Assembly (NCBI GenBank): GCA_039720395.1
Contig: CM077826.1
Coordinates: 30,686,810-30,750,809 of the forward strand
Reading direction: 5' to 3'
Source: Liquidambar formosana
Taxonomy: Eukaryota > Streptophyta > Magnoliopsida > Saxifragales > Altingiaceae
Length of the DNA: 64,000 nucleotides
The position numbers and the translations under genes are program-made. The notes below the pieces were generated by a model. The model saw nothing but the letters and a program-made list of their open reading frames with translations. It did not search any database and was not told where the DNA came from. Below, piece after piece: positions 16,432-51,780 of the stretch. Position 1 is the first letter of the stretch. The number at the start of each line of letters is the position of its first letter.

Positions 16432-16507
16432 GGGTGACCGGTTGGCCCCAACCGGTCCAACCGGTTGGTGAACCAGTCCAACCGGTTGAGCCCAACCGGT
16501 CACCCGA
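16432..16507. promoter_or_regulatory. Hypervariable palindromic cassette, F1 3' LTR (ACCGGTTGG type)
   Basis: A GGTGACC...GGTCACCCGAG frame encloses at least five copies of ACCGGTT or its complement, spaced by a few bases. It lies about 200 bases upstream (in LTR sense) of the minus-strand TATA box. The matching block in the 5' LTR is at 31469-31545. Function is not known; position and repetition suggest protein-binding sites. Confidence 0.6.
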
Positions 16508-17141
16508 GAAGAATCCAAAAATTTTGGAATTCTAGCTCGGTTTGGACTCCAAACTTCAAACGGACACAAATTCTTCATTTTAACTCCGATTTGAGTGATT
16601 CAAAAGCTAAAATTTCAAGGATTCAATGTAGAATAAAACTAGAATATTCTTGAACCAAAAATCCCTGACCATGGTCAGGTGGCTGGGTTTTCATGAGGCG
16701 ATTACCTGAAAAAAGGTCAATTAACCATAGGGTAATGTGGTGAACCAATCCCAAACCTATCAATAAATTAAATTGGCACTTCAATTAGACTCATTTCATC
16801 ATTCTAAGGTCAATGGAACACTCCAGAGCAAATTTGGAAGTCAATTGGAAAATATACGAAGTAAAAGGCGAAATTGCCCTCCAAGTCGCAAAAGTTCTAA
16901 TTGGCTATCCAAACCTATCTAGAATTGAACTAAATTTGACACACATATCCAAAATGATCCTAGAAACTAAATGCAAGTGATGGGACTCAACAAAGAGACA
17001 AAAATATGCATGCAATGATGACCTATTCTCCTAAGGCTTAAAAGGGCAAAAGTATCTTTTAAGGCTTAGGGACTCCTAGATGCTTCTAAACCTAACCAAA
17101 TGCTATCATTATCTTATGGGGGTGAAAATGGGGTGTCTATA

Positions 17142-17158
17142 GATGCCCCTCATTGGTG
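17142..17158 (-). other. Polypurine tract of F1
   Basis: On the minus strand CACCAATGAGGGGCATC directly precedes the 3' LTR. Element E has the same tract with one change at 46374-46390. Confidence 0.75.
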
Positions 17159-17269
17159 GAGTTTGCTTCACAAATGACACTAATGTTAGATAAGACAGCC
17201 CATTTTCACAGGAAAAGGGGAAAGAACCAAAGATTGAACTTCACTAGCAACTACTGGGGAAATTCATAA

Positions 17270-17625
17270 CCACTATAATGTATGCTCACCTGACGGGTGA
17301 GAACACAAAATAGGGGGCGTGTGTGACTACAAGGGTCATTTAAACACACTATACTTTCATACGCTCACCTCACTGGATGAGAGACCTCGTATGCTTCCAT
17401 AATGTACGCTCACCTCACTGGATGAGAGACCTCGCACAAAATAGGGGGCGTGTGTGACCACAAAGGTCATTTAAACACACTATACTTTCATACGCTCATC
17501 ACACTGGATGAGAAACCTCGTATGCTTCCATAATGTACGCTCACCTCACTGGATGAGAGACCTCGCACAAAATAGGGGGTGTGTGTGACCACAAAGGTCA
17601 TTTAAACACACTATACTCATCAAAC
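17270..17625. repeat. ~130-bp tandem repeats next to the F1 3' LTR
   Basis: About 2.6 units with a period of 130-131 bases (CACAAAATAGGGGG starts at 17305, 17435 and 17566). Each contains GCTCACCTCACTGGATGAG and TGTGTGACCACAAAGGTCA. Tandem repeats in the hypervariable region between pol and 3' LTR are known for Tat-lineage elements. Confidence 0.85.
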
Positions 17626-18300
17626 CAAATCATGAAGCTTCAATTTAACAACTTTGTTAAATTTAAGCAAAGGCCACCATTTCACTGTGCTATAATTTCC
17701 TTAAGAAATTAAATAGCAATCCAAAACAAATCATATATGTGACTCACAGAGTCATTTAAACATACTTCCCAAAACCAATTCCAATCAAGCATTCATAAGC
17801 TTTATTTTAACAACTTTGTTAAAATTAAGCAAATCAAATATCCCAATTGTGCTACAATTTCCTCAAGAAATTAATAGCAATGCAAAACAATTCATGTATG
17901 TGACTCAAAGAGTCATTTAAACATACTATCATAATCAATTCCATTCAATCAATGATAAGCTTTATTTTAACAATCTTTGTCAAAATCAATCAAAGCAAAT
18001 ATTCCAATTATACTATAATCTCCTCAAGAAATTAATTGCAATGTCAATTCATCATAAAGAATCAAGAAATAACAATTTCATGATCCTTACAAAGCATCCC
18101 AAGCATTCAATCAACTCATCATCCAATCAACAAAGCTTTATTTTAACCCGAGGATTAAAAATAAGCAAGAACACTCAATCAATTCCAACGTGCTATAATT
18201 TCCTCAAGAAATAAATAGCAATAGCAACTCAATCACAAAAAATCAAGGAATATAAAATTCCATGGTTCCAAACAAATATCATAAGCATCATCTTTCCATC
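17626..18300. repeat. Degenerate ~160-175-bp repeats upstream of the F1 PMD gene
   Basis: Four imperfect units beginning near AAGCTTTATTTTAACAA (17635, 17797, 17957 and 18133), each containing GCTATAATTTCCTCAAGAAAT and, in the earlier units, a GTGACTC...GAGTCATTTAAACATAC palindrome. They are non-coding and grade into unique sequence before the PMD promoter. Confidence 0.75.
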
Positions 18301-18530
18301 ATCCAAAGATAAAGCCCTTTACCAAAGCAAATGTCAAAGTGGGCTTGCAAATATCACCATGAGTGCACTAATAATTCAATTAGTGACTAATCACTCATCA
18401 TTTCATGTATTTCAAGTCATTCACATCAAGTTCTAGGCTTTTTAAGATGAATTTCATCAAAAAAGCAAGCAAAAAAGGGCCCGGTTAAGCGAAAATGTGC
18501 AAAAATTGCACAAAACGAATATGGGCATTG

Positions 18531-18571
18531 GGGGACCGGTTGGACCGGTTGGGGCCAACCGGTCACCTGAG
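18531..18571. promoter_or_regulatory. Palindromic cassette of the PMD-1 promoter (ACCGGTTGG type)
   Basis: GGGGACCGGTTGG, GACCGGTTGGGG and CCAACCGGTCACCTGAG follow each other within 41 bases, 38 bases before a TATA box. Both the core and the terminal GGTCACC.GAG match the cassette in the LTRs of the same element, though the flanking DNA is different. Confidence 0.6.
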
Positions 18572-18607
18572 AGTGGACTTTTCTACACTTTTTTGTGGTG
18601 TTTTGGC

Positions 18608-18614
18608 TATAAAG
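18608..18614 (+). promoter_or_regulatory. TATA box of the antisense PMD-1 gene
   Basis: TATAAAG in GGCTATAAAGCC, 250 bases before the inferred start codon. The same arrangement (cassette, TATA, ~250-base 5' leader, ATG) is seen for PMD-2. Confidence 0.6.
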
Positions 18615-18860
18615 CCTTGCACCATCCTTCATTTGTTCATCCTTCTTTGCTTGGTTTTTGAGAGCTTCTCTCTCTAGAAACCCAACATCCAACATTCCCA
18701 ACTTCAAAATACCAAAACTTTGGTATTAAACTTGAATCATTGTGGTGATTTATCACCAACAACACCACTTTCAAGGAATCAAAACAACCTTTGATTCATC
18801 AAATCATCCTTCCCAACTTACTTTTTTCAAATCAAACCCATTTTCTCAAGAACACCCAAC

Positions 18861-21800
18861 ATGAGTTCTTCATCAAATAAATACTCCGATGCCAAGTATC
18901 CACATCACTTTCTCAAGAAAACATACAAAGCACCTCATTATGAAGATCAACCAGATAGCTTGCTCTTGGAACCCAACAATCATCTCTCCTACATCCATTC
19001 CATGAATGAGGTAAGACAATTCCCAACTCCTTCAAGTTCATCCTTATTCTTTCATTTCATTGTTTCTTTTTAAATATTTGCTACTCTTATGAATGAAATG
19101 CATTGAGTTTTTGCTATTTTGACAATTTTTGGGAGTTTTCCATATACAAAGACCTCATTTTCCAACATAGGCATAACTATGCCCACCAAGTGTTTGATAA
19201 AATTCCCAAGAGAATAAAATCTTTCTTTTTGCTTTCAAATAGTCAAGATAATCAAAAGTGAACTCAAGAGCATTCTCTAGAATGCTAACCCATGAATTTT
19301 GAAGTTCTTTTCTTTACAAAAAACCTTGTAGGCATAACTATGCCTACTAAGTGTTTGATAAAATTCCCAAGAGAATAAAATCATTCTTCTTTTTGCTTTC
19401 AAATGCCAAAAGTTCTTGAACAAACTATCAAAGATATCCTTCAAGAGGTTTACCCATGAGTTTAGAAATACTTTTCTTTACAAAAATCTTGTAGGCATAA
19501 CTATGCCTACCAAGTGTTTGATAAAATTCTCAAGAGAATAAAATCATTCTTTTTCTTTTCGAATGCTCCAAGTTCTTAAATAAAACATCAAAGGTATTCT
19601 CTAGGAGGTTTACCCATGAGTTTACCAATACTTTTCTTTACAAAAATCATGTGGGCATAACCATGCCTACCAAATGTTTGATAAAATTCTCAAGAGAATA
19701 AAATCATTCTTTTTCTTTCAAATACCTTAGAAAACCAAAGGGAAACTCAAAGGCTTTTTCTTGGGATGCCAACCCATGATTTTTAGAGCACTTTTCTTTA
19801 TAAATACTTTGTAGCCATAACAATGCCTACCCAAATAAAATCATTTTTTGCTTTCAAATACTTTGGGAAATCAAAGGAAAACTTAAGGGCATTCCCTAGA
19901 ATATCAAGCTATGATTTTTTGAAATACTTTCTTTTATAAAACTTTGTAGTCATAACAATGCCTACCAAGTATTTGATAAAATTCTCCTTTTTCTTTCAAG
20001 TGCTTTAACCAACCCAAAGAAAACTCATGGGTATTCTCTTGAATGTTAACCTTTGATTTTTGAAATACTTTCCTTTGCAAAGAACTTTCTTTTCACATGT
20101 GTAAACTTTTTTGAAAAACTTGAAAAACCATGAATTTAAGCATTCTTGATTTATTCATTAAGCATAGCAAATACTCAAAATAACAATTTCCATGATTTCC
20201 TTTATTCTTTGTAGCCAAACTTTGAGGACAGGACAAGCCATGCCCTTGGGGGAGTTATTGAGTGGTGGCGCAAAATGGCCACACGGCAACCCGAAGCCCA
20301 GAAGATTATAATCAATGCGGGTTTTGGAGACTTCCTGAATGCTTTATGGGTGGAGTAGAGGGACAGACAAGCGCTGCTGGCCCTTACTGAGTTGTGGTGG
20401 GACACCACCAACACTTTTCACTTCAGTTTTGGGGAAATGACTCTTACCCCAACGGATTTCACCGTTATCACCGGACTTTGCCTAGGTGGGCGGAGGTTAT
20501 CTTATTATGAGAATGCCCACGAGGATTCCTATTACCTCTTGGAACAACTCGGGACCGTGGTACCAGTTCAAAGCGGTGGAGTGCGCAGAACTTGGCTAAA
20601 GAATCATTTTGGTGATTAAAGAGAAGAGGATGATGCAGATCCATCTTGTCTTGCCTGAGCTTTCATGCTATACATATTGTCCAGCATATTCTTTGCTAGC
20701 TCTGGCGATGTGGCTCATCTCGGGCACCTTGCTTGTATGGAAAATGTCTGGGAGATTGGGGAATACAACTAGGGCAATGCTGTGCTCGCTGTGCTATACA
20801 GGTCCATGAGTGACAGATCTCGCGGACTGAGCACAAACCTACTGCGGGATGTCCTTTATCTGGGAGGTAAACCAACCTACAAGCTTCCTTTTAAAATATT
20901 TGCAATGAATACACATCATCATTTTCTTTTGAAATTCATTTTCTTTTTGAAAACAGATCTGGTACTACGAGTACTTAGGGTTTGAACGTCCCGCTCTCAT
21001 GGATAATGATCCCTCATGGCCTGTTAGGTCCAATTACCACATTGACAATAGGTGTGATTCAGTGGACAATAAACATGACTATGCCCATGCTAGGGCATTC
21101 CTAGCTTGCTGATAAGGTAATCTCTAAAACTTTTATCTTTTGAATTCCATCTTTTCAATTCTTTTACTTAACACCAACTCATGAATTAGGTGGACTGGGA
21201 TCCATGGGCGCAATGGAAATATGCTCTTGAGGAAAAATGCCACAGGTGTGTTGATATGACTGAGAAGAGGATCTTCCTAGAAGGTCCTATGGGTCGCTAT
21301 TGGTACCTCGGGGAGCGAGTTTGGCGCCAAGTGAAAGGCACCATTAGTGCAGCTGTAGTTCCTATGGCACCACCTGAGAGCATGAGACATGCCAACTCCT
21401 TACAAGGGCGCGAATTGATCAAAGCTATAAGAGGCAAGGAGGCGAGTGACTTCATAGTTCCAAATGGGAACTACGAGAGTTTCTGTAGGAGGTATCTGAT
21501 GCCTCCTAGGGTCGTAGGAGTTCCACTTGTAGGGGTAAGTACATATTCAACCCTGTACATGCTTTACAAGTATTTCCTAACTGACCATGTGCAACTCTTT
21601 TCAGGGACGGCGAGCTCGTGGTCACCATTCCACAGTGGGCTCAACCTCGGGTGTGTCAAGGGTGCATATGGATAGTGATGATGAGGGCATGGATAGGGAC
21701 GCACTGCCCCCTTTACCACGGCTAAGTGGTCCATTGATCTATGCTAAGGAGGCAATATTGTGCCCACGACCATAGCACCTCCCGTGATGGACGAGGTTCC

Positions 21801-24530: not shown

Positions 24531-25127
24531 AATACTGTAATGCCCGCATCATTTAATTAGGATAATCTCACTTTTAATGCATGATTTACATGTATATTAG
24601 TTGTTTTGTCGGGTATTGTGGTGCATAGGCATCACATGGGTACGATGTTAACATGTTTGTGATTTCACAATTTTAGATTGCTGAAATTTGGCTAAGTGTT
24701 GGAAAAAATGGATTTTCGAAAAACTTCGTTTTTAAAGATAATTTTTGGCGGTAATGGAAGTTTATAATATTATAAGATATATGTGATTTTATGGGATTTT
24801 ATTATCACGTTTCGATCGGTTTCCTCGTACGTTTGTTTTTGAAAAATCTGTCGGGAGTCGGATTTTGTACTAAAACTTGAAAATGAGATTTTGATTTACT
24901 TGGAATTTGATTTTTTTGATATTTTATTTGGATTCAAATGGGGGGTTATTTGCTTATTTTCATTAAATAACTTAAAGTAAAAGGAAGAATAAAAGAATGG
25001 AGAAGATTACTTTAAGTTATTTAATGAAAATAAGCATTACTTAAATGTTTTTAATGTAAATAAGGTAGTGGTAAGTACTGTGGGAGTTTATACACATTTG
25101 CCTGAGTTACTGGGCATTTTCAGCAAG

Positions 25128-25238
25128 TGACGATCGATCCTAACCTTGGGACGATCGATCGTCAGTGCCCCGGAAATGCAATTTTGCCTCTGTTTTTCAC
25201 GATCGATCGTACCCTCAACCTACGATCGATCGTGCATC
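25128..25238. promoter_or_regulatory. ACGATCGATCGT palindrome cassette in the solo LTR at 24536
   Basis: Four CGATCGATC-type palindromes in two pairs, ending 55 bases upstream of the TATA box. The related LTR at 60381 has a different palindrome family at the same place. Confidence 0.6.
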
Positions 25239-26088
25239 GCGGATTTTGCAAATTTTTTTTTTGCGTAAATGACGCATATGCCCCTCACCCCTTATAAAAC
25301 CCTCATATCACGATTCTAACACCCATTTTCAGCATTTTGAGTGTTAGGGACTTGAGAGAGAAAGAGAGAGAGAGGGGAAAGATAGGAGAGAGAAAGGGAG
25401 TGTTTGGAGAGAGAAAATCACATTTTTCTCTTGCATGCATGGGTTTTTGACTCTCTCTCCTCATATCAACGTTGGGATTCACGTTCTAGGGGCTGGATTT
25501 GAAGATCTACACGTGCTTTGAGAGGATTCAAGCCTGATCTGTAAAGTTTGGAGCTCATTCATGCTTTCTAGGCTCAGATCCGACCTTCCCAACACATTTT
25601 CTCTACGTTTGGTGCAATATATGTGAGGTAGGTGTAATTTTCATGGGTTTTAACCGTAGGGATGATAATGGGTTAGTATATAAGCCCATATATGTTGGAC
25701 AAAAACATATTTTGGTGTTATTTATGAGTTTTTGTGATTGTTGGGTGTATTATCATGTATATTTTGTAATGCATGTACTGAGGGGTCTAGTTTACGTAAC
25801 CCTATATTTAGGAATATTAATTTTGGGAGTATATGGGTTGATATACTTGTCATATTTTAGTTTATTTGGAAGGTACATGCTATGTAAATTCTTGTTGGTC
25901 TATATTTTACATGTTTTACATAGCTCCCACATGTTATATAATTATGAAATAATTATATATTGTTGATTTTTGGGAATAACTGACACGTGTATGAGTTTTT
26001 ATGCTCTCATGGCATTCATTGGCATAAAATGCATGAAATGGACTTGATTAATTACTTGGTAAAAGTATATTAACGGGTTATTGGATTT

Positions 26089-26290
26089 GGACTACTAGCG
26101 GTCAAGGGACTTAGCGGTGTTTTCCATTCCTTTGGTCCTGGGTACTTTCCGGTTCCAGGTAGGGACCCTTGTGTTCCCAAATCAGAGGCTACTTTCCGGT
26201 TCCAGGTAGGAACCCTTGTGTTGTCCTCTTGGAGGTGGGTTTAAATCCTCCGTTTCCGCGCGAAGACTCCTGCGGGAGTGGTTGGTAATG
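26089..26290 (+). other. Conserved structured island in the LTR at 24536
   Basis: Nearly identical to 62128-62332 although the LTRs around it have diverged. It contains ACTTTCCGGTTCCAGGTAGG twice (26144 and 26190), a GGAGG...CCTCC pairing and the hairpin ACTCC-TGCG-GGAGT (26266-26279). It lies well downstream of the TATA box, so it would be in the transcript. Function unknown. Confidence 0.55.
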
Positions 26291-26862
26291 ATGGATTATG
26301 TTAAATGGACATGAGTCGCATATCATTCATGACATTGCATGGGTTTTAATTATTTTAAGCATGGTTTTAATTGGTTATATTATCATGCTTTGGTTATTTC
26401 TATATGAAAATTATATCTACTGAGTTTTATACTCACTCCTATGTTTATAAATTTTTTTCAGATGATTTCATAGCTGGGGAGACCTCGCCTTGAGGTGCTA
26501 TGCTTTGATGGGAAAAATTTTAATATTATGGATATGTATTAACTAAACACTTTGTATTCGGCCAATAGGCACTAGACATGTAATAACTTATGGTTTGTAA
26601 TATTTTAATTTCGTAGGTCTCTTTATATGGTTTATTTAGCATGTGATGATACCAATGATGGATGACAGGAACTTTTATAACTCTTTTATACAGGATTTTG
26701 TTATGGTATGTTCCATTTACGGATGGGTCATGCCGAAATTTTTATTAAAAATTACAGGTTTTCTAACACGTGCCATTCACGTGCTTCCTCAATGATTTTC
26801 TTAATTAAACTAGATTTATTAATATTGATCACGGCTTAATTAATTTGGGTCGTGACAAATAC

Positions 26863-28993: not shown

Positions 28994-28996
28994 GAC

Positions 28997-31900
28997 TGTG
29001 AACCACAGGGTTTCGATCCGGAGAAGAGGAAGGAAAGAACCCTTCTTTTAAAAAAGACTCGTAGAGATTTAAATTAATAAAAATCTGGTTTTTAAAAGGT
29101 TCACAAAAACAAAACAAACAAGGAGTCGCCACCTCATTTTTAGGAAAAGAGGAAAACCATAAAAACAATTTTTAAAGAAAACCTTTGAAAACAAACCACA
29201 TGACTCCGATAAAGGAAAAGCAGGCCTAATCAAAACAAGAGAGGATTCGGAGACTAAGTTACGATGTGGGAAGGTTCTAGGAAACATCCTATAGGCACCC
29301 ACATCGCCCCAAAATGGGTCTCTGAATTTATATGGGCTATTTCAATCACTTCTTAATTAGTCACCATGCATATGCAAAGAATCATCCATAAACCAATCGC
29401 ATTCATCCATGAACATCTATAAAGCAATAAACATCCATAAAGCATGTAAACATCCTATGAACAAGTATGAGAGATATGGAAAGCAAGTAAGAGATAGAGA
29501 GAATGAGCAAACAAATCCATCCTATCCACTAGCAAATATGTGATGGATAAATGAGCAAGCAAACAAATCCATCCTATCCACTAACAAATATGTGATGGAT
29601 AAATGAGCAAGCATGGGTCCATCCTACTCCACTAGCATATATGTGATGGACAAATGGGTAGAAAGAAAGAAAGAAGATAGAAAAAGAAAACCTAGGATAC
29701 TTAGTATCCTAGGGCGGACTTGAACATCAAATGAGCACCTACATACCTTACATACAAAGATGTAAGGATCAAAGTCCACGTAATTTGATTGAGAAGGGGT
29801 TACTCCCTTTACAATGAACTATAAACCCTAAGTTTCCATTAAAAGAAAAGAAGAGTTTTAAAAAGAAGAAGAGTTTCCAAAAAAGGAATTTGAGAAAAGA
29901 TAGAATTGGAAAAGAGATAGAACTCTTGTCCAAAAAGAAGTTTGGGAAAAGTAGAATTCTAAAAGAGATAGAACTCTAATTAAAAAAGAAGTTTGAGAAA
30001 AGTAGAATTCTAAAGAGATAGAACTCTAATTAAAACAGAATTTTAAGAGAGTTGGAAACATAGGACTTCTAATTCAAAGTAAAGACAATAACCCTAGGAG
30101 GGAGAAGAGAACAATCCAAAACAAACTTACCATGAACCACTTACTATATGCAAATTATCCCAAAACATCGAGAAAACATCAATTAATCACCCTATGTATT
30201 CTATAGGGCAATTATTAAGCTCAATTCAACCATATTCATGCTCAAATAATCATTAGAAGACCTAATTCAAATCTGGACAGAATGCTAAATATGCATATAA
30301 TGACCTAATACTGCATGCAAATAACAAAAATCAAAAGGAAAACAAAATCCTAGTATGCTCCTATATGCTCCTATATGCTCTAAACACCCTAATATGCACA
30401 AAACTATCAAAAAACATGCTAAATAGGCATTACCATGATGAAAATATCATATGACAATCCTAAACATGAAAAGAAAATCTAACATGATGCCTTAGGTAAG
30501 TACTTTATGTAAGAATGTGAAATAATCATCCTTACGGCGAGCTTTCTTAAGTAAAACTATCCGGAGATAATTTTACGTAGAAACCACTCCGTATGAATGA
30601 TTTCTTCACATATCCTATGTAAAATATATACCTAAGAATGCAAATAAACTCACAGCGCACTTAAACACACTCCAGAAAGCACCCATGCACAACCTCACCC
30701 TCTAAGGACGATAATTATCCTCGAAAAGGATAATCATCCATATACCTATGAAGATGAGGCTTACACACAAGTGTCCTATACAAAAGATGCTTAAAATCAT
30801 GCATATAATTGAACCGTGAAGAGAAAACGGCCTAAACACATCAATTGATTTTTCATGCAAAACGTACCTCTATCCTTAAGAGAGAAACTATCCTACCAGC
30901 AAACAATTCACAATCCTAATCCACTAACATGCATTCTCATCATATTTAAATCATATACACTCTAAAATATAGAGTATATATGATTCCTAATTCAAGTCTA
31001 AGCCATAGTTATGCAGAGAATGAAGTAGAAGAAGAAGGAATCATAAAAGGATGCAAAGGAGACTTACAACAAGGCAAAGGTCTTCGCTGCGTTCTTCCTT
31101 CTCTTTGGATTAGTTCCCTTCTAGTTCTCCTTTGAAATTGCAGTAGAAAGCCTCCTCCAAGTGATATGGGTGTGTGCAAACTCGTGGTCCCTCTCTCTCT
31201 CTCAGGAATATGAAGTGTCAAATAAGCAAAAAAGTCCCTTATGTTGATGAATGAGCCTCTATTTATAACCAACCAACCATATGAACCAATGGTTGAGATT
31301 AATTCACCATAAAACCAATCTAAGGCTGTAATTAAATCCCATGAATGTTAAACAACTCAAAACCACCTCCCAATAGGCTTAGAAGTCCTTTAGAAGGCTA
31401 AAATTCGGAGTGGTAGAGTCCCATTCCGTTAAAACTTCAAAAAGAGATAAATCAGGACGGAGCTCTCAGGGTGACCGGTTGGCCCCAACCAGTCCAACCG
31501 GTTGGTGAACTGGTCCAAACGGTTGAGCCCAACCGGTCACCCGAGAAGAATCCAAAAATTTTGGAATTCTAGCTCGATTTGGACTCCGAACTTCAAACAG
31601 ACACAAATTCTTCATTTTAACTCCGATTTGAGTGATTCAAAAGCCAAAATTTCAAGAATTCAATGTAGAATAAGCTTAGAATATTCTTGAACCAAAAATC
31701 CCTGACCATGGTCAGGTGGCTGGGTTTTCATGAGGCGATTACCCGAAAAAAAGGTCAATTAACCATAGGGTAATGTGGTGAACCAATCCGAAACCTATCA
31801 ATAAATTAAATTAGCACTTCAATTAGACTCATTTCATCATTCTAAGGTCAATGGAACACTCTGGAGCAAATTTGGAAGTCAATTGGAAAATATACAAAGT

Positions 31901-32179: not shown

Positions 32180-32184
32180 TGATG

Positions 32185-32780: not shown

Positions 32781-32782
32781 AT

Positions 32783-35878: not shown

Positions 35879-35883
35879 TAGGG

Positions 35884-37923: not shown

Positions 37924-40900
37924 TGTAGACACCCCATTTTCACCCCCACAAGTTCATGATAGCATTTGTTTAAGTTTAGAAGCATCTAGGAGTCCCTAAG
38001 CCTTAAAGGACACTTTTGCCCTTTTAAGCCTTACGAGAATAGGTCATCATTGCATGCATATTTTTGTCTCTTTGTTGAGTCCCATCACTTGCATTTAGTT
38101 TCTAGGTTCACTTTGAGTATGTGTGTCAAATTTGGTTCGATTCCAGATACGGTTGGATAGTTAATTAGAACTTTTGCGACTTGAAGGGCAATTTCATCTT
38201 TTACTTTTTATATTTTCCAATTGACCTCCAAATTTGTTCCAGAGTATTCCATTGACCTTAGAATGATGAGATGAGTCTAATTTAAGAGCCAATTTAATTT
38301 ATTGATAGGTTTTGGATTGGTTTACCATATTACCTTATGGCTAATTGACCCTTTTTTCGATTAATCGCCTTGTGAAAACCCATCCACTTGATTGTGGTCA
38401 AGGATTTTTGATTCAAAAACATTCTAGATTTATTCTACATTGAATCCTTGAAATTTTGGCTTTTGAATCACTTAAATCGGAGTTAAAATGAAGAATTTGT
38501 GTCCATTTGAAATTAGGAAGCCAAAACGGGTCAGGAATCCTCAAAACCGAGGAAACCTGAAATTCCTCTCGGGTGACTGGTTCACCCCAACAAGTCCAAC
38601 CGGTTGGCCAACGGTTCACCCTAACCGATCACCGGAGGCCTCTAGTCTTGATTTGTCATTCTTTGAGTTTTTGACAGAATAGGACTCTACCACTCTGAAT
38701 TTCAGTCCTTCCAAAGGTCTTCTAAACCTATTGGGATGAGATTTTGAGTTGTTTAACATTCATGGGATTTAATTACAGCCCTAGATTGGTTTTATGGTGA
38801 AGTAATCTCAACCATTGGTTCACATGGTTGGTTGGTTATAAATAGAGGCTCATTCATCAGCATAAAGGACTTTTGGACTTTTGGTTGAACTTTTGGACTC
38901 TTTGACACTTCATATTCATTAGAGAGAGAGGGAGAACGAGTTGGCACTCACCCATATCACTTGGAGAAGGCTTTCTACTACAATTTCAAAGGAGAATTAG
39001 AAGGGAACCAAGCCAAAGAGAAGGAAAAACGCAGTAAAGACCTTTGCTTTGTTGTAAATCTCTTTTGCGTCCTTTTACGATTCCTTCTTCTTCTACTCCA
39101 TTCTCTGCATAGTTATGGCTTCGAATTGATTTAAGAATCATATATACTCTATATTTTAGAGTGTATATGATTTAAATATGATGTGAAAGCATGCTAGTGG
39201 AATAGGATTGTGAATTGCTTGCTGTTAGGATAGTTTCTCCCTTAAGGATAGAGGTACGTTTTGTACAGAAAATTAGTTGATATGTTTAGGCTATTTTCTC
39301 TTCACGGTTCAATTATATGCATGATTTTAAGCATCTTTTGTATAGGACACTTGCTATGTAAGCCTCATCTTCATAGGTGTATGGGTGATTATTCTTTTCG
39401 AGGATAATTATCGTCCTTAAAGGGTGAGGTTGTGCATAGGTGCTTTCTAGAGTGTGTTTAAGTGCACTGTGAGTTTCTTTGCATTCTTAGGTATATATTT
39501 TACATAGGATATGTGAAGAAATTGTTCATGCGGAGTGGTTTATACGTAAAATTATCTCCGGATAGTTTTACTTAAGAAAGCTCACCGTAAGGATGATTAT
39601 TTCGCATTCTTACATAAAATACTTACCTAAAGCATCGTGTTAGATTTTCTTTTCATGTTTGGGATTGTCATATGATATTTTCATCATGGTAATTCATATT
39701 TAGCATGTTTTTAATAGTTTTATGCATGTTAGGGTGTTTAGAGCATATAAGAGCATATTAGGATTTTGTTTCTCTTTTGATTTTTGTTCTTTGCATGAGT
39801 ATTAGGTCATTATATGCATGTTTAGTATTCTGTCCAGATTTGAATTAGGTCTTCTAATGATGATTTGAGCATGAATATAGTTGATTTGAGCTTAATAATT
39901 GCCCTATAGAATACATGGGGTGATTAATTGGTGTTTTCTCGATGTTTCAGGATAATTTGCATATGGTAAGTGGTTTATGGTAAGTTTTTTTTGTGAATTG
40001 TTCTCTTCTCTCCCCTAGGGTTATTGTCTTTACTTTGGATTAGAAGTCCAAGTTTCCAACTTTTATAAAATTCTGATTTATTTAGAATTCTATTCTCTTT
40101 TGAATTCAAATCACTTTAGAAGTCTATTTGAGTTAGAATTCTATTCTTTCTCAAATACCTACTTTTTTACAAACTATTTTTGGAAACTCCTAAGTTTTTA
40201 AAACTTTTCTTAAGTTGGAAAGTTAGGGTGTATAGTTCATTGTAAAGTGAGTAACCCCTTCTCAATCGAACTATGTGGACTTTGATCCTTACATTTTTGT
40301 ATGTGAGGTACGTAGGCGCTCATTTGATGTTCAAGTCTACCCTAGGATACTAAGTATCCTAGGTTTTTTTTTTTTTTTTTTTTCCTTTTATTCATTTATC
40401 CATCACATATTTGCTAGAGGAGTAGGATGGACCTATGCTTATTCATTTATCCATCACATATCCATCACATATTTGCTAGAGGAGTAGGATGGACTCATGC
40501 TTATTCATTTATCCATCACATATTTACTAGAGGAGTAGGATGGATCTGTTTCTTATTCTCTATCTCTCTACTGATTTCCATACCTCTTTTATTTGTTCAT
40601 AGATGTTTACATGCTTTGTGGATGTTTATATGCTTTATGGATGTTTATGGATGAATGTGATTGGTTTATGGATGACTCTTTACATATGCATGATGACTAA
40701 TTAGGAAGTGATTGAAATGGCCCATATAAATTCAGAGACCCATTTTGGGGCGATGTGGGTGCCTATAGGATGTTTCCTAGAACCTTCCCACATCGTAACT
40801 TAGTCTCCGAATCCTCTCTTGTTTTGTTAAGGCCTGCTTTTCCTTGATCGGAGTCATGAGGTTTGTTTTCAAAGGTTTTCTTTAAAAACTGTTTTTATGG

Positions 40901-41049: not shown

Positions 41050-41052
41050 GTC

Positions 41053-41070
41053 TGGCGACTCCACTGGGGA
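41053..41070 (+). other. Primer-binding site of element D
   Basis: TGGCGACTCCACTGGGGA three bases after the LTR end; nearly identical to that of F1. Confidence 0.8.
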
Positions 41071-43373: not shown

Positions 43374-46373
43374 TGTGAACCCACGAAAAAGCGCGGCACC
43401 CACAAGGATTTGGTGAAAGAAATAGTATGTGTGGTGAAAGACAACAAACTAAAAGGAGTCGCCACCTCATTTTTTAGGGAAAAGAGGAAAACTACAAAAA
43501 TGTTTTATTTTCAAAACCACATGACTCCATTAAAGGAAAAGCAAAGTCTTTGAAACCAGAAAATTGGATTCGGGGGCTAAGTTACGACGTGGGAAGGTTC
43601 TGGGCAAAGCTCATAGCCACCCACATCGCCCGAGTTGGTCTCTTAATTTAATTGGGCTAACTTAATATCTTTTTCACTCAAATATCAGCATATATCATCA
43701 CAAGGCAGCATGCATATCATATATTCCATCCAATCATCCATGCACAATCAAACAAATAAAACAAAACAGAAAAAAGAAGAAAAGAAAAGAAAAGCCTAGG
43801 ATACTTGGATCCTAGAACAGACTTGAGCATCACGAAGAGTGCCTATGTACCATGCAGCGAAATACATGGATCAAAGTCCACGTAGTTCGAAAAGAATAGG
43901 GTTACAACCTAATACAAACCTATGGTAAATACCCTAGGTTTCCTTATTTAAAAATATATTGATTTAGTCCAAAATCGAAAACTTCCACAAGAGGAAAACC
44001 TTGATAGAAAACCAGAATTTTATTAATAGAAGAAACCTTTGATATTCACCATATGTTCATATTAAGAAATAACCCTAGGAAGGAGAAGAGAAAAGAAAGA
44101 AGAAAAGTGATTTAGGGCACTTCATACCCTACTTACTTGAGTGCAAGAGCTCCAAACATTAGCCATTTCAAGCAATAACGGCCCTATTTTGCAATAGGAC
44201 AGCATCGTACCTGTTTGCACCCTTACAAGTGCACAAAATCATGCAAAGAGGACAATATACTAATCTAGACAGAACCATGACAAGGCCTAAAATCATCCAT
44301 ACATCATGCAAACAACAAGAATAATGAATAACTAAGGACTCTAACTCAATCCTACATGCAATGACCCAACTAACATGCATAAAAAACCTATAAGAAACAT
44401 GCTAACAGTCATGAGAGACTCCAATAATATCAATAAACATGATAACAAAGCACATTCTAACCAAAAAGATGATATTTTATGTAAAATATGAAAATAGGCC
44501 TTCCTACGGTGAGCTTTCTTAAGCGAAACTATCCTAAGATAATTTCACATAAAAAAGTCATTATGGGGAGGAACAATCAACATATCCTACGTAAAATATG
44601 TATACTAGAACACAATAGAAGTGATTTCATGCTTAAACACATCACAGAAAGCTCTCATGCAAAACCTCACTCAACGAAAAGGATAATTATCCTTAGAAAA
44701 GGATAAAACCCTATAAAATCCACTATATGAATGCAAACCTAGCATGATTCAACTATATGCAGCATATATAGAATGACTATAATGAGAAATTACTCACAAA
44801 GTTAAGCTAAGCATGCTGTATGAAACTTGTGCGAATTCAGGGTTATCGAAACCCTAATTTCACAACCATGCATCAAAACCTATGAAATGACTCTAACACA
44901 TGTTCAAATAAACATGAATATCATTCATATCACATATATTAACTAACAAGAGCATCAATTCATGACAATTATGACAGCAACCTAAACATGTGAACTATGC
45001 ACGATTCAAGAGGATAGAAAAGATAATACTCTCAAATCCTTAGTAAACTAGGGATTATCAAGCATATAAAGCCATAAATCATCTCAAAATCATTCATATA
45101 TTATCCTAAAAACATTGAACTAACCTAACATGTGGAGTTATTTCATGCACTAGAACTATCATAGAAGAAGAAGGAGAAGGAGAAGGAGAAGTAAAAAGCC
45201 CAGGTTCAGCATTAAATAGACATGCTTACCTCTTGTAGACTCTTCCTTGTCTTTAAACTTCTTGTTTCCTTCCTTGCTTGGGGTTGAAGAGCCTCCTATT
45301 GATGTCCTTCTAACTCTCCAAACTCGTAGTTCCCTCTCTCTCTAAGTATAAAGTACAATTAACCTCCCTCTATATGCTGAATATCATGTCCTTTATATAG
45401 AGAACTGACCCCCTAAACCAATGGCTAAGATTAATTCATTAAATAATGATCCTAGGGCTATTAGAGACTCTCTTGGTACTCAAACAACTGAAACTTACAC
45501 ACTCCTAAAAGAAAACAAGTTGTAATGGACGGAGGAAACCGTCAAAAGAGGGAGAGAGAGTCAGAAGTTGAGTTGAAGACGAACTCTCTCGGGTGACCAT
45601 CTAGGCCTGGACGGTTAGCCGTCTGGGCTTGGATGGCTGACCGTCCAGCCCCGGACGGTTACCCGAGGGTTCTCCTATTCCGCTTCGGTTTTGACTTCTA
45701 CTTGCTTCAGAAGTCCTAAAATATTCAAATTAAGTTCGATTTTGACGAAATAATAGCCAAAACGACCGTGTTTCAAAGGGGAACACATTTTTAGGCATTT
45801 TAGGACAAAAATCCTTAACCATAGGTGCATGGTTAGGTTTTACAAAGGTGGTTAACCATGGTGCCTCACCGTCGTTAAGCTGGGTTTGTACACAAGGTCA
45901 AACCAAATGCTTTCCCAATCGAAATTTGATCTTTCTAAACATATTTAGGACATAAATAAGGCCCAATTGAAGTTAAATGAGAGACAATTGGTTGGGTCTT
46001 ATGAGTCAATTTGAGCAAACCAAGAAAGGGTCTTTTAGCCAACCCGAACCATTACGAGCCGAATTGATCTTAAACCATCAATTCATGAAATTGAACCTAT
46101 ATATAGACTCTATATAACCATATGAACTCGAGGGAATGACTCGGGATTCATTCCAAGGTCAAATGGAAAATATACGGCTTAAAGGACGATTATGCCCTTA
46201 AAGTCGCAAAAGTTCTTATTGACTATCGAAATGAACTCCAAATCACTTCAAAATTCATACACATGATATTCAACGCCATAGAAACTCAATGCAAAAGACT
46301 AGACTCAAAAAGGACTCAAAATCCTACATGAAATGATATGTCCTAGCTAAGGTGACAAAAATGGGGTGTGACA
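43374..46373 (-). mobile_element. 3' LTR of Tat-type gypsy element E
   Basis: 3000 bases from TGTGAACCCACG to GGGGTGTGACA, in minus orientation, inserted in the gag of D. It contains a cassette at 45591-45668 and a TATA box on the minus strand (CTATATAAAG, 45391-45400), 190 bases apart. E runs to the right; its 5' LTR is beyond the window, so the target duplication cannot be checked. Confidence 0.9.
45591..45668. promoter_or_regulatory. Palindromic cassette in the E LTR (GACGGTTA / GACCGTCCAG type)
   Basis: GGGTGACC opens and GGTTACCCGAGG closes a 78-base block with GGACGGTTAGCCGTC, GGCTGACCGTCCAG and CCGGACGGTTA. The same core words appear in the two antisense-gene cassettes of this element at 48393 and 51703. 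Confidence 0.6.
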
Positions 46374-46390
46374 GAAGCCCCTCATTGGTG
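46374..46390 (-). other. Polypurine tract of E
   Basis: Minus strand CACCAATGAGGGGCTTC directly before the 3' LTR; the counterpart of F1 17142-17158. Confidence 0.75.
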
Positions 46391-46789
46391 AACAAGTTTC
46401 ACTTGTGAGCCAATGATTAAAGAACAACCCATTTTTGTTCGATAGATTAATCTCATTAATACCAATAAACTCAAATGGAACCATAAGGATAGACTTCGTC
46501 ATATCCGAGCACGCGACGATTTCATCGAAGCAAATAATTGATTGCATGCCAACATTCGTTGGAGCGCTCATGCAAATGCCTTTACCATGCACTAATTGCA
46601 TTAGTGATATCCACTGTGGTCTTCTCATGATGCGAAACTAGTTGCACTAGTGCATCACAAGGTATCTTGCCAATTGCATTGGAATTCTCAAAACAAGTTA
46701 TTTCATAACAAGTAAAACTCATAGATCATCATTTCATGTGAATTTATCATTGAATTGAATGTCCGTCAATTCAAAACCAAGTGCATTTC
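46391..46789. other. Spacer between the E polypurine tract and tandem arrays
   Basis: Unique-looking sequence with loose CTAGTTGCACTAGTGCAT and GCACTAATTGCATTAG palindromes near 46600-46650. I see no gene; ORFs on both strands here are short and not conserved. Confidence 0.5.
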
Positions 46790-47535
46790 ATGCCAGCTCA
46801 CTGGGGATAACAAAGGTAGTGAGTTATTTCATAACTCATGACTCATCATTTCATGTGAAATTATCATTATCACACGATTTCATGCCACTTTCAGTGGAAA
46901 TAGCAAAGATAGTGAGTTAATTCATAACTCTTGAATCATCATTTCATGTGAAATTATCGTTATCACACGATATCATGCCACTTTCAGTGGAAATAACAAA
47001 GGTAATGTGTTATTTCATAACTCGTGAATCATCATTTCATGTGAATTTATCATTATCACATGATTTCATGCCACTTTCAGTGGAAATAGCAAAGATAATG
47101 AGTTATTTCATAACTCATGAATCATCATTTCATGTGAAATTATCGTTATCACATGATATCATGCCACTTTCAGTGGAAATAACTAAGGTAGTGAGTTATT
47201 TCATTACTCGTGAATCATCATTTCATGTGAATTTATCATTATCACATGATTTTATGCCACTTTCAGTGGAAATAGCAAAGATAATGAGTTATTTCATAAC
47301 TCATAAATCATCATTTCATGTGAAATTATCGTTATCATATGATATCATGCCACTTTCAGTGGAAATAACAAAGGTAGTGAGTTATTTCATAACTCGTGAA
47401 TCATCATTTCATGTGAATTTATCATTATCACATGATTTCATGCCACTTTCAGTGGAACTAGCAAAGATAGTGAGTTATTTCATAACTCATGAATCATCAT
47501 TCCATGTGAAATTATCATTATCACATGATATGAGA
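46790..47535. repeat. 93-bp satellite-like tandem array in E
   Basis: Eight units, spaced exactly 93 bases from 46932 to 47490 (46932, 47025, 47118, 47211, 47304, 47397, 47490). Two unit types alternate, so the higher-order period is 186. Each unit carries TCATTTCATGTGAA...TCACATGATTTCATG. Because 93 is divisible by three the array reads open on the plus strand (46948-47637); this repeating 31-residue ORF is a by-product, not a gene. Confidence 0.93.
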
Positions 47536-47559
47536 TCCAATTGCAAGTCAATTGATTCA

Positions 47560-48130
47560 AAACCAAGCTTATTCCTTATCATTTCATGTGAAATTATCTT
47601 TATCACATGCGATGACATTGAATTGAAAGTCATTTAGCTCAAAATCAAGTTCATTTCTTATCATTTCATGTGAAGTTGTCTTTATCACATGAAATGACAT
47701 TGAATTGAGAGTCATTCAACTCAAAATCAAGTTCATTTCTTATCATTTCATGTGAAGTTGTCTTTATTACATGGAATGACATTGAATTGAGAGTCATTCA
47801 ACTCAAAATCAAGTTCATTTCTTATCATTTCATGTGAAGTTGTCTTTATCACATGAAATGACATTGAATTGAGAGTTAATTGATTGAAAACCAAGCTTAT
47901 TTCATGTCATTTCATGTGAAAATTATCTTTATCACATGATATAACATTGATTTGAAAGTCAATTGATCGAAAAACAAAGTGCATTCCATGCCAATTTCAT
48001 AAAGATAGCAAGTTACTTCGTAACTAGCATAACTCATGAGTCATCATTTCATGTGAAGTTATCTTTATCACATGATTAGCAAGTCATTTCATGTGAAATT
48101 ATCTTTATCACATGATATGACATCACTATC
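47560..48130. repeat. 82-bp tandem array in E
   Basis: A second array with a period of 82 bases (TCATTTCATGTG at 47579, 47661, 47743 and 47825), followed by degenerate units to about 48130. It shares the TTTCATGTGAA...TTATCACATGA core with the 93-bp array but has a different filler (GACATTGAATTGAGAGTCATTCAACTC region). Confidence 0.9.
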
Positions 48131-48392
48131 ATCATATAGAGAATTGAATTCCAAGACTTTAAAGCCAATCTATTCGACACCAAGCTCATTTCATGAGAAA
48201 GCCATTTATCATAGCCATAACAATTTCTCGTTATGTGGGTAAATACAATCACCCAAGATTTAAAAATTTCATTAAAACTTGATAAACTGGGGGATATATT
48301 CATCCCATAGCTCAAGGATTGCACAAAAAGTCAATTGGAGAAGTTTAGAGGTTGCAAGCGCGCGAGATGGGGCAAACGAGCAAGGCGGGCTA

Positions 48393-48469
48393 GGGTGACC
48401 ATCTGCCCTCAGATGGTCAACCGTCCAGGGCAAGACGGCTGACCGTCCAGGGTGGGACGGTTACCCGAG
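48393..48469. promoter_or_regulatory. Palindromic cassette of the PMD-2 promoter
   Basis: GGGTGACCATCTG...GATGGTCAACCGTCCAGG, GACGGCTGACCGTCCAGG, then GGGACGGTTACCCGAG, ending 25 bases before the TATA box. The core words match the E LTR cassette. Confidence 0.6.
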
Positions 48470-48493
48470 CCCACTAAGGAAAAATTCTGGGTT

Positions 48494-48500
48494 TATAAAA
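48494..48500 (+). promoter_or_regulatory. TATA box of PMD-2
   Basis: TATAAAA in GGGTTTATAAAACCC, about 255 bases before the ATG. Spacing from TATA to ATG matches PMD-1. Confidence 0.6.
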
Positions 48501-48755
48501 CCCATTCCTTGCACACTCATTCCCACATTCTTCCAATTCGAAAATTAGAGAGTTTCTCTCTCTAAACTCACATTCCACCTTTTCCATCTCTTATTCTCTC
48601 ATTCCCATTTCATAAACACTCAATCCAAACATCAAATTCACATCAAACAACAACAAATCAAGCCCATTTGACAATCAAAACAACCAATTCACATCATCTT
48701 TGGAAATCAAACCAAATCAAACCCATTTTTCACAAACCCAACTCCATCATCAAGA

Positions 48756-51387
48756 ATGTCATCAAGCAAGGACTCAAACACCAAGTATCCATTCTATGGG
48801 TTCAAAAGCAAATACAAGGCACCACTCTATGATGCTCCACAAGATAAGGTGTTGCTTGAACCCGACAAGTATCTCTCATTCCTCCATTCCCAACAAGAAG
48901 TAGGTTTACCCAACTTAACACTTTTCTTTTGAATCTTTCGATTCTTTTGGTGAAATTGCATTCCCATTTACTTCTTTTTAATACCCCTTGTGTTGTTGAG
49001 TAATATCCCTTGATTTGACAAGGATTGAACACACAAATTCTTTTCATTTGAAAGCTTGAAAAATGGCACCCACCAAGTGTTCGATAAAATGCCCAAGTGA
49101 AATAAAGATGTTCAATCTTTACCAAATCAATGTATATCAACAAGTAAACACTCAAGTGAGTAATATGCTATGATTTAGCAAGGATTGATTATACAAAATT
49201 CTTTTGTTTCAAGGCTTGGGAAGTGTCACCCCCCAAGTGTTCGATAAAATGCCCAAGTGATAAAAAAGTGTTCAATCCTTGCCAAATTAAGGCATATGAA
49301 CAAGTAAACTCATAAACATTCATTAGCAATTCATTTCATGAATAAAAACAACTTCTTGACATCTTTTAGAAAACAATTTGAAACCAATTGCTAGTGTAGG
49401 CTTATTATTTCTATGTTCTTTCAACTAACCCTCAAGGTATTTTCAATGGCTATAGCCCAACTTTCAGGATATGCGCACTAGGTCCTCTATCAAAGGACTC
49501 ATTGAATGGTGGCGGAACATGGAAAACTTCCAACCTATTGCCAAGGGCCATGTCGAAAAGGCCGGTTTTGGTCCATTCCTAGATTCTCTGTGGAATGATC
49601 AATGTGATAGGCAAGCCTTGCTAGCCTTGTCTAAACTATGGTGGGACACCACCAACACATTCCATTTTGGCTTCGGGGAGATGACATTAACCCCCAAGGA
49701 CTTTACCATGATCACGGGATTGAGCATTAAGGGCAAGAGCTTGGAATTTTATGAAGAGGCTTCCACAGATGAGGATTACCTCTTAGCTTACCTTGGAATG
49801 GAAGTTGAGGTAATCAAGAAAGCAGTGCGCCGCACTTGGCTTTTCAACAAATTTACACAGCAAAAGGAGAGCGAGGGTGCGAGCCCCGATTGCATTACAA
49901 GAGCATTCCTCCTTTACATGATCTTATGCACATTCTTTGCCGGTACGAGCGACCTAGCCCCTTTGGGTCTTCTTGCAAGCATGGAAGATGTTGGCAAGAT
50001 TAGGAAATTCAACTGGGGAGGGGCTGCTCTAGCCACCATGTACCGCACAATGTGTGACATGTCATGTGGTGTGACCAAGGACTTCGACAGGATGCCATTT
50101 ATTTGGGAGGTAATGCTACTTCCTTTTTATTTCTTTTCACTCTTTCTTATATTTTCCTTTCTTTTTTGACTCTTTTCTCAACTCTTGACAGGTCTGGTGC
50201 TATGAGTACCTCAACCTATGTCGCCCATCTCTTGCTGAGGAAACCATTGAATGGCCTACCCTCAAGAATTACTTCCCTAGTTATGTGTCCTTCCGAGCGG
50301 CGAATCGGCATGATTATGCCTATGCTAGAGCTCATCTAGCAAGCCTGACAGCTGACATGGTGAAATTCTTTCCCTATTCTTTTCTTTTCTTTTTTCCTTT
50401 TACTTCCAAGTTCTCATTTTAGATTCTTGAACAGATTGAATGGAACCTGTGGAAGATATGGGTACCAATGCTACCCAAGCGATGCATTTTTAGCTTAATG
50501 TTGACTGGCAAGAGGGTGCTTTTGGAAGGCCCCGTGGGTAGGTACTAGTACTTGGGGGAGCGAGTCTTACGACAAGTCCTGGGTGATGTGAATGCAGCTA
50601 TGGCTCTAATGCTACCACCACTTAACATGAGGCATGCTAACTTGATGGAGGGGGAGGAGTTGTGGGATGCTCTGAGAGGCTGGGATGCGGAGGAGTTTAC
50701 TTCTCCTGACATTGTATACGACACTTTTTGTCATCGATATTTGATGAGGCCCAGGGTGATAGGTCTCCCTCCTCAAGGGGTAAGTCTTTGATGCTTTCCT
50801 AGCCTTTTTCTTTTGATAGAAACTTTATTTGATAGGTGAACACTTGCAGGGTCGACGAGCACGAGGGCATAGCTCGACAGTGGGCTCAGGAGTGGTCCCT
50901 GGCTCTGCAGAAGATGAGATGGAGGGGGATAGGTCACTACCCTTGCCTCAGCCTAATTAGTCCATTGACCTATGCTGCGGGTCGGACTTTGTCAAGACCG
51001 CAATCACTCACCCTGCATTTGATGAATCCCCTAGGATCGACCCAAATCGAGAATAGGTGAGTTCTCTTTAAGGGTATTTCTTTCTTTCTTCCAGCATTAC
51101 CTTCAATTTAATCTCATTAATTATCCTAGGTGCCGGCGGCGTATGCCCAAGAGTTCATCGACCTTAGTGAAGGCTTGAGGCGTGACCTTATGAGGATGAG
51201 CTTAGCCAAATCCATGGCGGAAGCTCGTCTGGATGTCATGGTAAGTGTTCAACCTATTTAAAATTCCCATTTATGGTTTTCAACCAACCTATTCTCATAC
51301 TTAGCTTCTTTGCAATGGATTTTGTCTATGCAGCCGCCACCAACAATGCGCCCTCCTAGAGCACCAAAGAAGCTCTGGGGGTCGTGA
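48756..51387 (+). pseudogene. PMD-2: seven-exon plant-mobile-domain gene, antisense in E, with three TAG codons
   Basis: Exons by GT-AG boundaries: 48756-48899, 49456-50109, 50192-50359, 50435-50779, 50850-51056, 51130-51240 and 51334-51387. Every exon length is divisible by three, so all introns are phase 0; total about 560 codons. The PMD hallmarks are LIEWWRNME, LWWDTTNTFHFGFGEMTLT, FTMITGLS, AVRRTWLFNKF, CRRYLM-like CHRYLMRPRVIGLP and the C-terminal PRAPKKLWGS. Exons 1-3 are open; TAG codons at 50546, 50958 and 51054 each fit a TGG or similar codon after deamination. The PMD family (PF10536) occurs in host silencing factors and in transposons. Its position between pol and 3' LTR on the opposite strand fits the known antisense additional ORFs of Tat elements. 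Better preserved than PMD-1. Confidence 0.88.
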
Positions 51388-51702
51388 CGGAGTTGGGCCG
51401 AGCCACAAAAGAAGCTCTGGGAGCCGCTGAGTTCATTTACTTTCTTGTTGGACTTGTAGAAACAATGAGACAATGGTTATCTTCTTGCATTTCATGCCAT
51501 GTTTTGTAATTGCAACCTTATACCAACTTTCTTACGGATACTTGTAGTGCTTCTTTGAATCTATCATGATGATGTTGTGGTGCTTTTCTTATGGAAATTT
51601 GAGTCAATGTGAGCTCATAGGAGTGAAAATGGCCTAAAAATGCCATCCGAACACGAAAATAGGCAAAACCGGGCGAAACAAGGCAAAACAAGGCGGGGGC
51701 CT
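51388..51702. other. Spacer between PMD-2 and the DUF7745-like gene
   Basis: PMD-2 3' flank, with a repeated CAAAGAAGCTCTGGG(G)G near 51363 and 51407. It is followed by GCAAAACCGGGCGAAACAAGGC-type short repeats running up to the next cassette. No open frame of note. Confidence 0.6.
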
Positions 51703-51780
51703 CGGGTGACCGTATGGCCCCGGACGGTTAGCCATCTGGGCCTAGACAGTTGACCGTCCAGCCCCGGACGGTTACTCGAG
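51703..51780. promoter_or_regulatory. Palindromic cassette of the DUF7745-like gene promoter
   Basis: GGGTGACCGTATGG, CCGGACGGTTAGCC, GACAGTTGACCGTCCAG and CCCGGACGGTTACTCGAGG. It is almost the same wording as the E LTR cassette 6 kb away, ending 88 bases before a TATA box. Confidence 0.6.

Follow-up and report, generated by a model that had tools for sequence, protein, structure and literature searches.

In the genome of Liquidambar formosana, retrotransposons with long terminal repeats (LTRs) carry arrays of palindromic sites upstream of TATA, and in the elements counted a single half-site class is used at the LTR promoter and at the promoters of genes on the opposite strand. We analyzed a window of 64,000 nucleotides (the whole stretch at positions 30,686,810 to 30,750,809 of contig CM077826.1, assembly GCA_039720395.1) holding two minus-strand elements, E and F1, whose plus-strand (antisense) genes encode PMD (PF10536) in both elements and DUF7745 (PF24924) in E. 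Array architecture, site spacing, and distance to TATA are regular across these promoters. The cassettes may be operator arrays read by a single dimeric DNA-binding factor, for which the PMD or DUF7745 protein of the same element is a plausible candidate; we give this reading about an even chance.

Results

Cassette architecture

As a whole, the E cassette is an 80-bp near-palindrome of four palindromic sites, one unit following the next at 22-bp steps: CTCGG-N4-CCxxC, two copies of GxxGG-N4-CCxxC, and GxxGG-N4-CCGAG, with CTCGG and CCGAG as its ends. Cassettes of elements with GGCGG half-sites measure 80 or 81 bp, and reduced forms of 58 or 36 bp have one or two units fewer. In the F1 LTRs, total cassette length is almost that of E, with steps of 21 and 23 bp (judged by eye), and the F1 PMD cassette is a reduced form of 41 bp. 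In six cassettes (the E LTR, the two E antisense promoters, a solo LTR at 35090, and both F1 LTRs), 52–64 of 78–80 bases equal their own reverse complement, a palindromy matched by none of 2000 letter shuffles of each; in a decayed F1-family copy at 38568 it is not clear (32/70, p 0.05). The CpG observed/expected ratio was 0.64 in 50 cassettes versus 0.48 in flanks, a mild excess due in part to the motif itself.

An initial annotation of the window had described 40- to 90-base blocks of short motifs upstream of TATA. The blocks it named were located within a few bases of where it placed them, and their upstream position holds, but in E the loose motifs resolve into the ordered four-site array described above. 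Of its two frame motifs, GGTYACCCGAG occurs 11 times in the window at up to one mismatch (shuffles: mean 0.57, maximum 2), while GGTGACC is more weakly enriched (10 versus 4.2 in shuffles, with a shuffle maximum of 9). Its inventory was incomplete, lacking a third F1-family cassette (38568–38637) and two arrays in LTRs of another type (25131–25234 and 60982–61127). The latter two emerged from a scan for inverted 7-mer pairs, at 61021 (28 pairs) and 25141 (24 pairs), in which the F1 3′ LTR cassette ranked first (35 pairs); ten second-order Markov simulations peaked at 9. High scores are not exclusive to cassettes, since AT-rich repeats score as well.

Promoter arrangement

In E and F1 the LTR cassette stands upstream of the LTR TATA, and the antisense genes have a like cassette upstream of theirs. 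The antisense open reading frames of E are placed between pol and the 3′ LTR. The minus-strand pol order, examined for E only, is reverse transcriptase, RNase H, integrase, as in Ty3/gypsy elements.

Distances from cassette to TATA fall into a few narrow groups. Among the 32 cassettes with both ends recognized, TATA lay at 188–200 bp in 20, at 25 bp in 2, and at 87–88 bp in 6; none was found in the remaining 4, two of which have TTTAAA at 24–25 bp. F1-type PMD promoters, in the window and at locus L028, have TATA at 37 bp, and PMD distances overall are 24–28 or 37 bp, with DUF7745 mostly at 87–89 bp. The distances first reported for the window were likewise confirmed, with 188–200 bp for F1- and E-type LTRs, about 170 bp for element C, and 25, 37, and 88 bp for the antisense promoters.

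Half-site class follows the element

Comparison beyond the window drew on loci L001–L029, all on contig C1; most were picked by matches to the end motif or to TGCGTACGCA, and they therefore tell nothing about cassette frequency. Within the inner half-site, xxCGG, the CGG core is constant and the two preceding bases vary by family: GACGG in E and L004; GGCGG in L008, L002/L003, and the solo LTR at 35090; and ACCGG in F1 and L028. That solo LTR had been assigned to the E family, and it is indeed 74% identical to the E LTR where aligned, but its half-site class is found in other elements.

Own-class half-site matches outnumbered other-class matches 121 to 11 across 18 cassettes, seven elements, and three half-site classes, a count that accepts the decayed half-sites GGAGG, GGCAG, GACAG, and ACCAG, picked after the cassettes were seen. 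The 18 cassettes come from elements with at least two promoter classes seen (lone cassettes and L029, whose pairing is ambiguous, were left out). Because ACCGGT is identical to its reverse complement, sites of the AC class were counted on both strands. In L003 and L002/L003, LTR and PMD cassettes were paired by orientation and distance only, and in L028 a solo LTR insertion separates the PMD and DUF7745 cassettes. These counts bear out the proposal that motif identity follows the element and not the promoter type, as do L010, a further element, and L027, a copy of it, which use a fourth motif; the agreement within elements is real, exceeding that between elements. At the family level, full agreement would arise by chance with a probability of 1/36 (three families) or 1/576 (four), the number of independent classes being small. 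Between E and L008, whose PMD exons are 68% identical, the counted half-sites at all three promoters differ in concert (GACGG versus GGCGG).

Locus L029 has cassettes at 2211–2291, 4436–4515, and 6684–6763, with a PMD cassette of GGTGG class and an LTR cassette of GGCGG class that is correctly oriented but lies 4.4 kb away; between them is an LTR cassette of GACGG class whose orientation is wrong. This mixed arrangement is probably a nested insertion.

A fourth motif in the L010 element

L010, a distant element found unplanned, has a PMD (25% identical) whose gene exons are open. All five arrays found in it (two in the LTR and one each in the PMD promoter, PMD intron 1, and a second antisense promoter) consist of ATGCGTACGCAT at up to two mismatches, with site steps of 20 or 21 bp apart from exceptions of 17, 69, and 31 bp. 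The copy L027 has the same five arrays, and there the second antisense gene, which follows an array of this type, matches DUF7745. Genome-wide, TGCGTACGCA pairs at 19- to 22-bp steps occur at 6474 places versus 0 for a reversed control. Scans of IMG/VR returned neither PMD relatives nor TGCGTACGCA pairs, and a literature search on GCGTACGC, the fourth motif class beside GACGG, GGCGG, and ACCGG, combined with "retrotransposon" gave only papers unrelated by title.

Cassettes across the genome and in E copies

Exact GGTYACCCGAG occurs 19,495 times (9787 + 9708) in the 718-Mb genome, versus 450 (241 + 209) for the reversed control. A protein search with the E PMD exon scored 150 of 4182 candidates, all at least 89% identical, and 20 E copies were hand-picked down this list of 150; all 20 have a stop-free PMD exon, and decayed copies are thus not represented. 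A PMD cassette was present in 17 of the 20 (16 whole, one cut) and a DUF7745 cassette also in 17 (13 with four units, four with two), with GACGG class throughout, so that each antisense promoter keeps its block in most sampled copies. Three PMD slices and three DUF7745 slices lacked a cassette, with insertion, loss, and shifted position not distinguished.

TATA lay at 24–28 bp in all 17 PMD promoters, at 88–89 bp in 12 of the 13 four-unit DUF7745 promoters (59 bp in the other), and at 88 bp in three of the four two-unit promoters, the fourth having none; the distance of 44 printed for two-unit copy 9 counts from 44 bp past the end of the short cassette. In slices placed by guess beside six of these copies, an LTR cassette was found in three. 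Two of these closely resemble the cassette of the E LTR and have TATA at 187–190 bp; the third is only 58/80 like it, of GACGG class, with no TATA detected.

PMD and DUF7745 proteins

The PMD exon of F1 is 49% identical to that of E. In a PMD tree of 12 rows, nothing contradicts the motif classes: there is support for the GACGG pair and for the L010/L027 pair, the ACCGG pair is unplaced, and P0001, a PMD 47% identical to that of L010, joins L010/L027 at 90/95. A back-reading of our own allows the in-frame residues upstream of P0001 (DAYA/CVRT/NAYA/MRTH) to be taken for the L010 palindrome with steps of 22, 20, and 20 bp. The cellular PMD proteins MAIN and MAIL1 are, in the passages available to us, needed directly or indirectly for genes with a common promoter motif (25/26; PMC7156037, PMC9899485). 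The tree, P0001, and this cellular role make PMD and DUF7745 products first candidates for the factor, and no more than that.

PMD, DUF7745, and DUF1985 show weak cross-matches below cut-offs, and perhaps form one superfamily. The DUF7745 exon at 51911–52342 of the window matches PMD weakly, and the PMD exon at L010:7460–8050 matches DUF1985 below the cut-off. The antisense exons searched matched PMD, DUF7745, DUF1985, or nothing, and TRP28 (PF04195) was not among their matches. A sequence search of the PDB with P0002 gave nothing usable.

Features of the window

Table 1. Arrays, cassettes, and antisense exons of the window (window positions) and of L010 (locus positions)
Feature	Position	Strand	Remarks
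Element C LTR array, 22-bp period, GGCCAAACGGCC / CCGTTGGCC	11718–11806	+	TATA ~11977
F1 3′ LTR cassette, ACCGG/CCGGT half-sites	16428–16508	-	TATA 198 bp away, minus strand
F1 PMD-gene promoter cassette, 41 bp, ACCGG class	18531–18571	+	TATA +37
F1 antisense PMD exon, contains stops	20215–20931	+	PF10536 on 20377–20607, E-value 2.9e-10
ACGATCGATCGT-type array, CGATCGATC starts 25131, 25152, 25200, 25223	25131–25234	+	Solo LTR 24538–26857, TATA 25293
F1 5′ LTR cassette, ACCGG class	31465–31545	-	TATA 199 bp away
Solo LTR cassette, GGCGG/CCGCC class	35090–35168	-	TATA 188 bp away
Third F1-family LTR copy, decayed cassette, opposite orientation	38568–38637	+	TATA 200 bp away
E 3′ LTR cassette, GACGG/CCGTC class	45588–45667	-	TATA 189–191 bp away
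E PMD-gene promoter cassette, GACGG class	48390–48469	+	TATA +25
E antisense PMD exon	49456–50169	+	PF10536, E-value 1.6e-22
E DUF7745-gene promoter cassette, GACGG class	51701–51780	+	TATA +88
E antisense DUF7745 exon	51911–52342	+	PF24924, E-value 6e-10
TCAGCCGGCTGA-type palindrome array, starts 60982, 61002, 61024, 61045, 61092, 61113	60982–61127	+	Solo LTR 60390–62970, TATA 61183
L010 ATGCGTACGCAT arrays	L010:4871–4962, 5588–5681, 6302–6496, 7184–7297, 9609–9722		

Both elements contain longer repeats near their PMD genes: tandem repeats of 93 bp and 82 bp at 46785–47964, between the E LTR and the PMD gene, and a 160-bp tandem repeat at 19168–20088, between the F1 PMD promoter and PMD exon. 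Retand elements likewise have repeats at the place matching 46785–47964 of E, according to the available part of PMC11963269. Two 1.66-kb insertions, in the F1 3′ LTR (13137–14797) and the E pol region (58065–59725), are 98% identical, and related pieces lie at 5031–8699 on the other strand.

Discussion

A proposed common factor acting with copying

We propose that each array, lying upstream of TATA at a set distance, would offer several palindromic sites about two helical turns (20–23 bp) apart; the full E cassette has four of them, and the other listed arrays have four to seven. One sequence-specific dimeric factor would read all arrays of an element, placing the sense LTR transcript, the antisense PMD gene, and the antisense DUF7745 gene under joint control. 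The likeliest candidate for this factor is the PMD (or DUF7745) product of the element itself, which would act in trans as well as on its own gene and would activate or de-silence rather than repress. The arrays themselves may evolve in three ways: units of 22 bp are gained or lost, one promoter of an element receives a copy from another, and whole blocks are exchanged between LTRs.

Half-site agreement may reflect selection for a common factor as well as copying, and both processes have support. When the LTR and PMD cassettes of E are compared, 28 of 30 half-site bases agree but only 8 of 24 spacer bases do (null 6.8, p 0.36), and the L010 arrays share 92% identity at sites versus 41% in their 8- to 9-bp spacers (null mean 34%). 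The half-sites of LTR and PMD cassettes also agree at 27/30 in both L004 and L008, and those of DUF7745 and PMD cassettes at 25–28/30 in E, L004, and L008. Since half-sites agree far better than spacers, both in L010 and between PMD and LTR cassettes, conversion alone is insufficient. In a comparison across families, E and L008 have LTR cassettes that agree at 21/30 half-site bases and at 17/24 spacer bases.

Several observations weigh against a common, element-encoded factor. The spacers of LTR and PMD cassettes are more alike than expected in L004 (11/24, p 0.02) and L008 (12/24, p 0.01), as are those of DUF7745 and PMD cassettes in all three elements (12–13/24, p 0.003–0.009), and some likeness remains in the L010 spacers, whose identity was reached by none of 200 shuffles. 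Between LTR and DUF7745 cassettes, 19, 20, and 24 of 24 spacer bases are shared in E, L004, and L008, which points to copying. Arrays of the same design occur in solo LTRs (25131, 60982, L028, L015, L016) of elements for which no PMD gene is known, and in the available part of PMC2829016 arrays are retained by four Sireviruses that lack ENV. Among PMD proteins, the GGCGG rows form no supported clade, and with only four motif classes compared, the tree agreement may be plain inheritance. No DNA-binding fold was recognized in the poor structural models (pLDDT 60 for PMD, 39 for DUF7745), and Foldseek, run on the PMD model alone, gave nothing usable (best E-value 1.8). The initial annotation had suggested an element-encoded factor or conversion of the cassettes: the half-site/spacer contrast favors selection for a common factor, while its encoding by the element is plausible only, with a PMD tree free of conflict; conversion fits the LTR and DUF7745 cassettes but does not by itself explain the L010 arrays or the PMD and LTR cassettes of E.

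Alternative explanations

Host transcription factors could instead bind the sites, each family having adopted a different host factor for all of its promoters. AGCCGCC in the GGCGG class is the GCC-box core of AP2/ERF factors, and CCAACGG in element C is a MYB-like core. Arrays are also present in LTRs without known antisense genes, and the sites identified within Sirevirus motifs were mainly those of stress factors (Bousios et al., PMC2829016, in the part available). Against a host factor stand the concerted shift of half-sites at three promoters between L008 and E, and the L010 motif readable beside the PMD of P0001; ATGCGTACGCAT and ACGATCGATCGT moreover fit no plant site that we can name, although no motif library was searched. 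We consider host factors a rather unlikely source of the pattern.

Agreement might also arise with no factor at all, from copying between promoters (by conversion or template switching) and homogenization of tandem units. The LTR and DUF7745 cassettes are 79/80 identical in L008 and 68/80 in E although their flanks are unlike (in E, flanks of LTR and antisense cassettes are 27–34% alike), unit number varies by whole 22-bp units (80, 58, 36 bp), and PMD spacers are somewhat above chance in most comparisons. Whole blocks also seem to have been exchanged between LTRs: the solo LTR at 24538–26857 and its copy L028:1608–3902 share 96% and 92% identity in the parts that flank an unaligned, array-bearing stretch of ~285 bp. 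There, one LTR has ACGATCGATCGT-type sites and the other TTTCAGACGTCTGAAA, and their cousin at 60390–62970 has TTTCAGCCGGCTGAAA-type sites; the site starts follow similar plans (21, 48, and 23 bp versus 21, 47, and 21 bp for the last four). Copying alone is nevertheless improbable given the set TATA distances, the persistence of cassettes in 17 of 20 sampled copies, and sites shared far more than spacers in PMD cassettes and L010 arrays.

These three solo LTRs are of another type, beginning and ending TGTAAT..GTGACA, with flanking repeats AATAC and GTACG (by eye). A further possibility, that the cassette is a mobile 80-bp unit bounded by 11-bp inverted ends, is disfavored by the set TATA distances.

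Most improbable is that the arrays act as hairpins, with transcribed cassettes folding to feed small RNAs and silencing, or as DNA cruciforms: all seven cassettes tested fold better than shuffles (z -3.4 to -9.1, with 0/200 shuffles as good in six and 1/200 in L008) and maize Sirevirus palindrome clusters are small-RNA hotspots, but such folding is expected of any palindrome array, hairpins alone require neither one sequence per element nor set TATA distances nor helical steps, and the palindromes are interpreted as cis-regulatory, too, in these same sources (PMC10760457, PMC5311732, available in part).

Relation to known systems

The known systems closest to these arrays are Sirevirus palindromic repeats (PMC2829016) and VANC/VANDAL, as far as the available parts of these sources go. 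Sirevirus (Ty1/copia) LTRs have element-specific palindromic repeats upstream of TATA and before ENV, held to be Sirevirus-specific (Bousios et al. 2010, PMC2829016), and later papers describe them as cis-regulatory, variable, and small-RNA hotspots (PMC10760457, PMC5311732). As in the Sirevirus RM arrays, a palindromic motif is repeated here in many near-identical copies per element upstream of the LTR TATA, further copies precede an accessory gene (ENV there, PMD and DUF7745 here), and the core is mostly CGG-CCG there, a feature found here in the E, GGCGG, and F1 classes. CpG islands there compare with mild CpG enrichment here. The present arrays differ in belonging to Ty3/gypsy-type elements with antisense PMD and DUF7745, plus another LTR type, E not being Ty1/copia. 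Beyond the Sirevirus account available to us, our data add the 20- to 23-bp steps, the set TATA distances, the half-site/spacer contrast, and the concerted difference between sister families.

Two further loci contain arrays of their own, L015:2524–2605 with CGATCGATCG and L016:7108–7277 with CAATCGATTG together with GGATCGATCC. The CAATCGATTG motif resembles the Sirevirus Tnd-1 motif ACAATCGATTGT (PMC2829016, available in part).

VANDAL transposons also have family-specific short motifs in tandem repeats of noncoding parts and an element-encoded accessory protein, and element-specific motif arrays in noncoding regions are what we find here. Their motifs, YAGTATTAY and AGTTGTCC/AC, are unlike ours, and the word palindrome is in neither text as available. 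VANDALs are DNA transposons, whereas the elements studied here are LTR elements with pol, PMD, and DUF7745; binding and demethylation were demonstrated for VANC (PMC5735166, PMC10398659), whereas ours are sequence arrays alone. VANC/VANDAL may nonetheless serve, by analogy, as a functional model.

Retand elements share antisense genes between pol and the 3′ LTR, suggested to be regulatory, but these encode TRP28 (PF04195) rather than PMD and DUF7745, and common promoter motifs are not mentioned in the available part (PMC11963269). MAIN/MAIL1/PP7L and the "DOWN" motif likewise link PMD proteins to genes having a common promoter motif (PMC7156037, PMC9899485, available in part), although those genes are cellular and the motif (CATGCAGTTT in MORC1) is dissimilar to our cassettes. 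Among the matches listed in our literature searches, we found no report of operators common to the LTR and antisense genes of Ty3 elements.

Implications

More broadly, and with rather less than even confidence, we suggest that PMD and DUF7745 proteins are dimeric DNA-binding regulators that co-evolve with a private palindromic operator at every promoter of their element, and that MAIN and MAIL1 descended from such regulators. If so, each family would have its own insulated regulatory circuit. The arrays tie the orphan family PMD (with DUF7745 and DUF1985) to candidate sites that are repeated, element-specific, and directly testable. A single design rule, a private operator common to the LTR and accessory genes, may span Ty1/copia Sireviruses and Ty3/gypsy-type elements, and could explain how the expression of many families is controlled separately within one genome.

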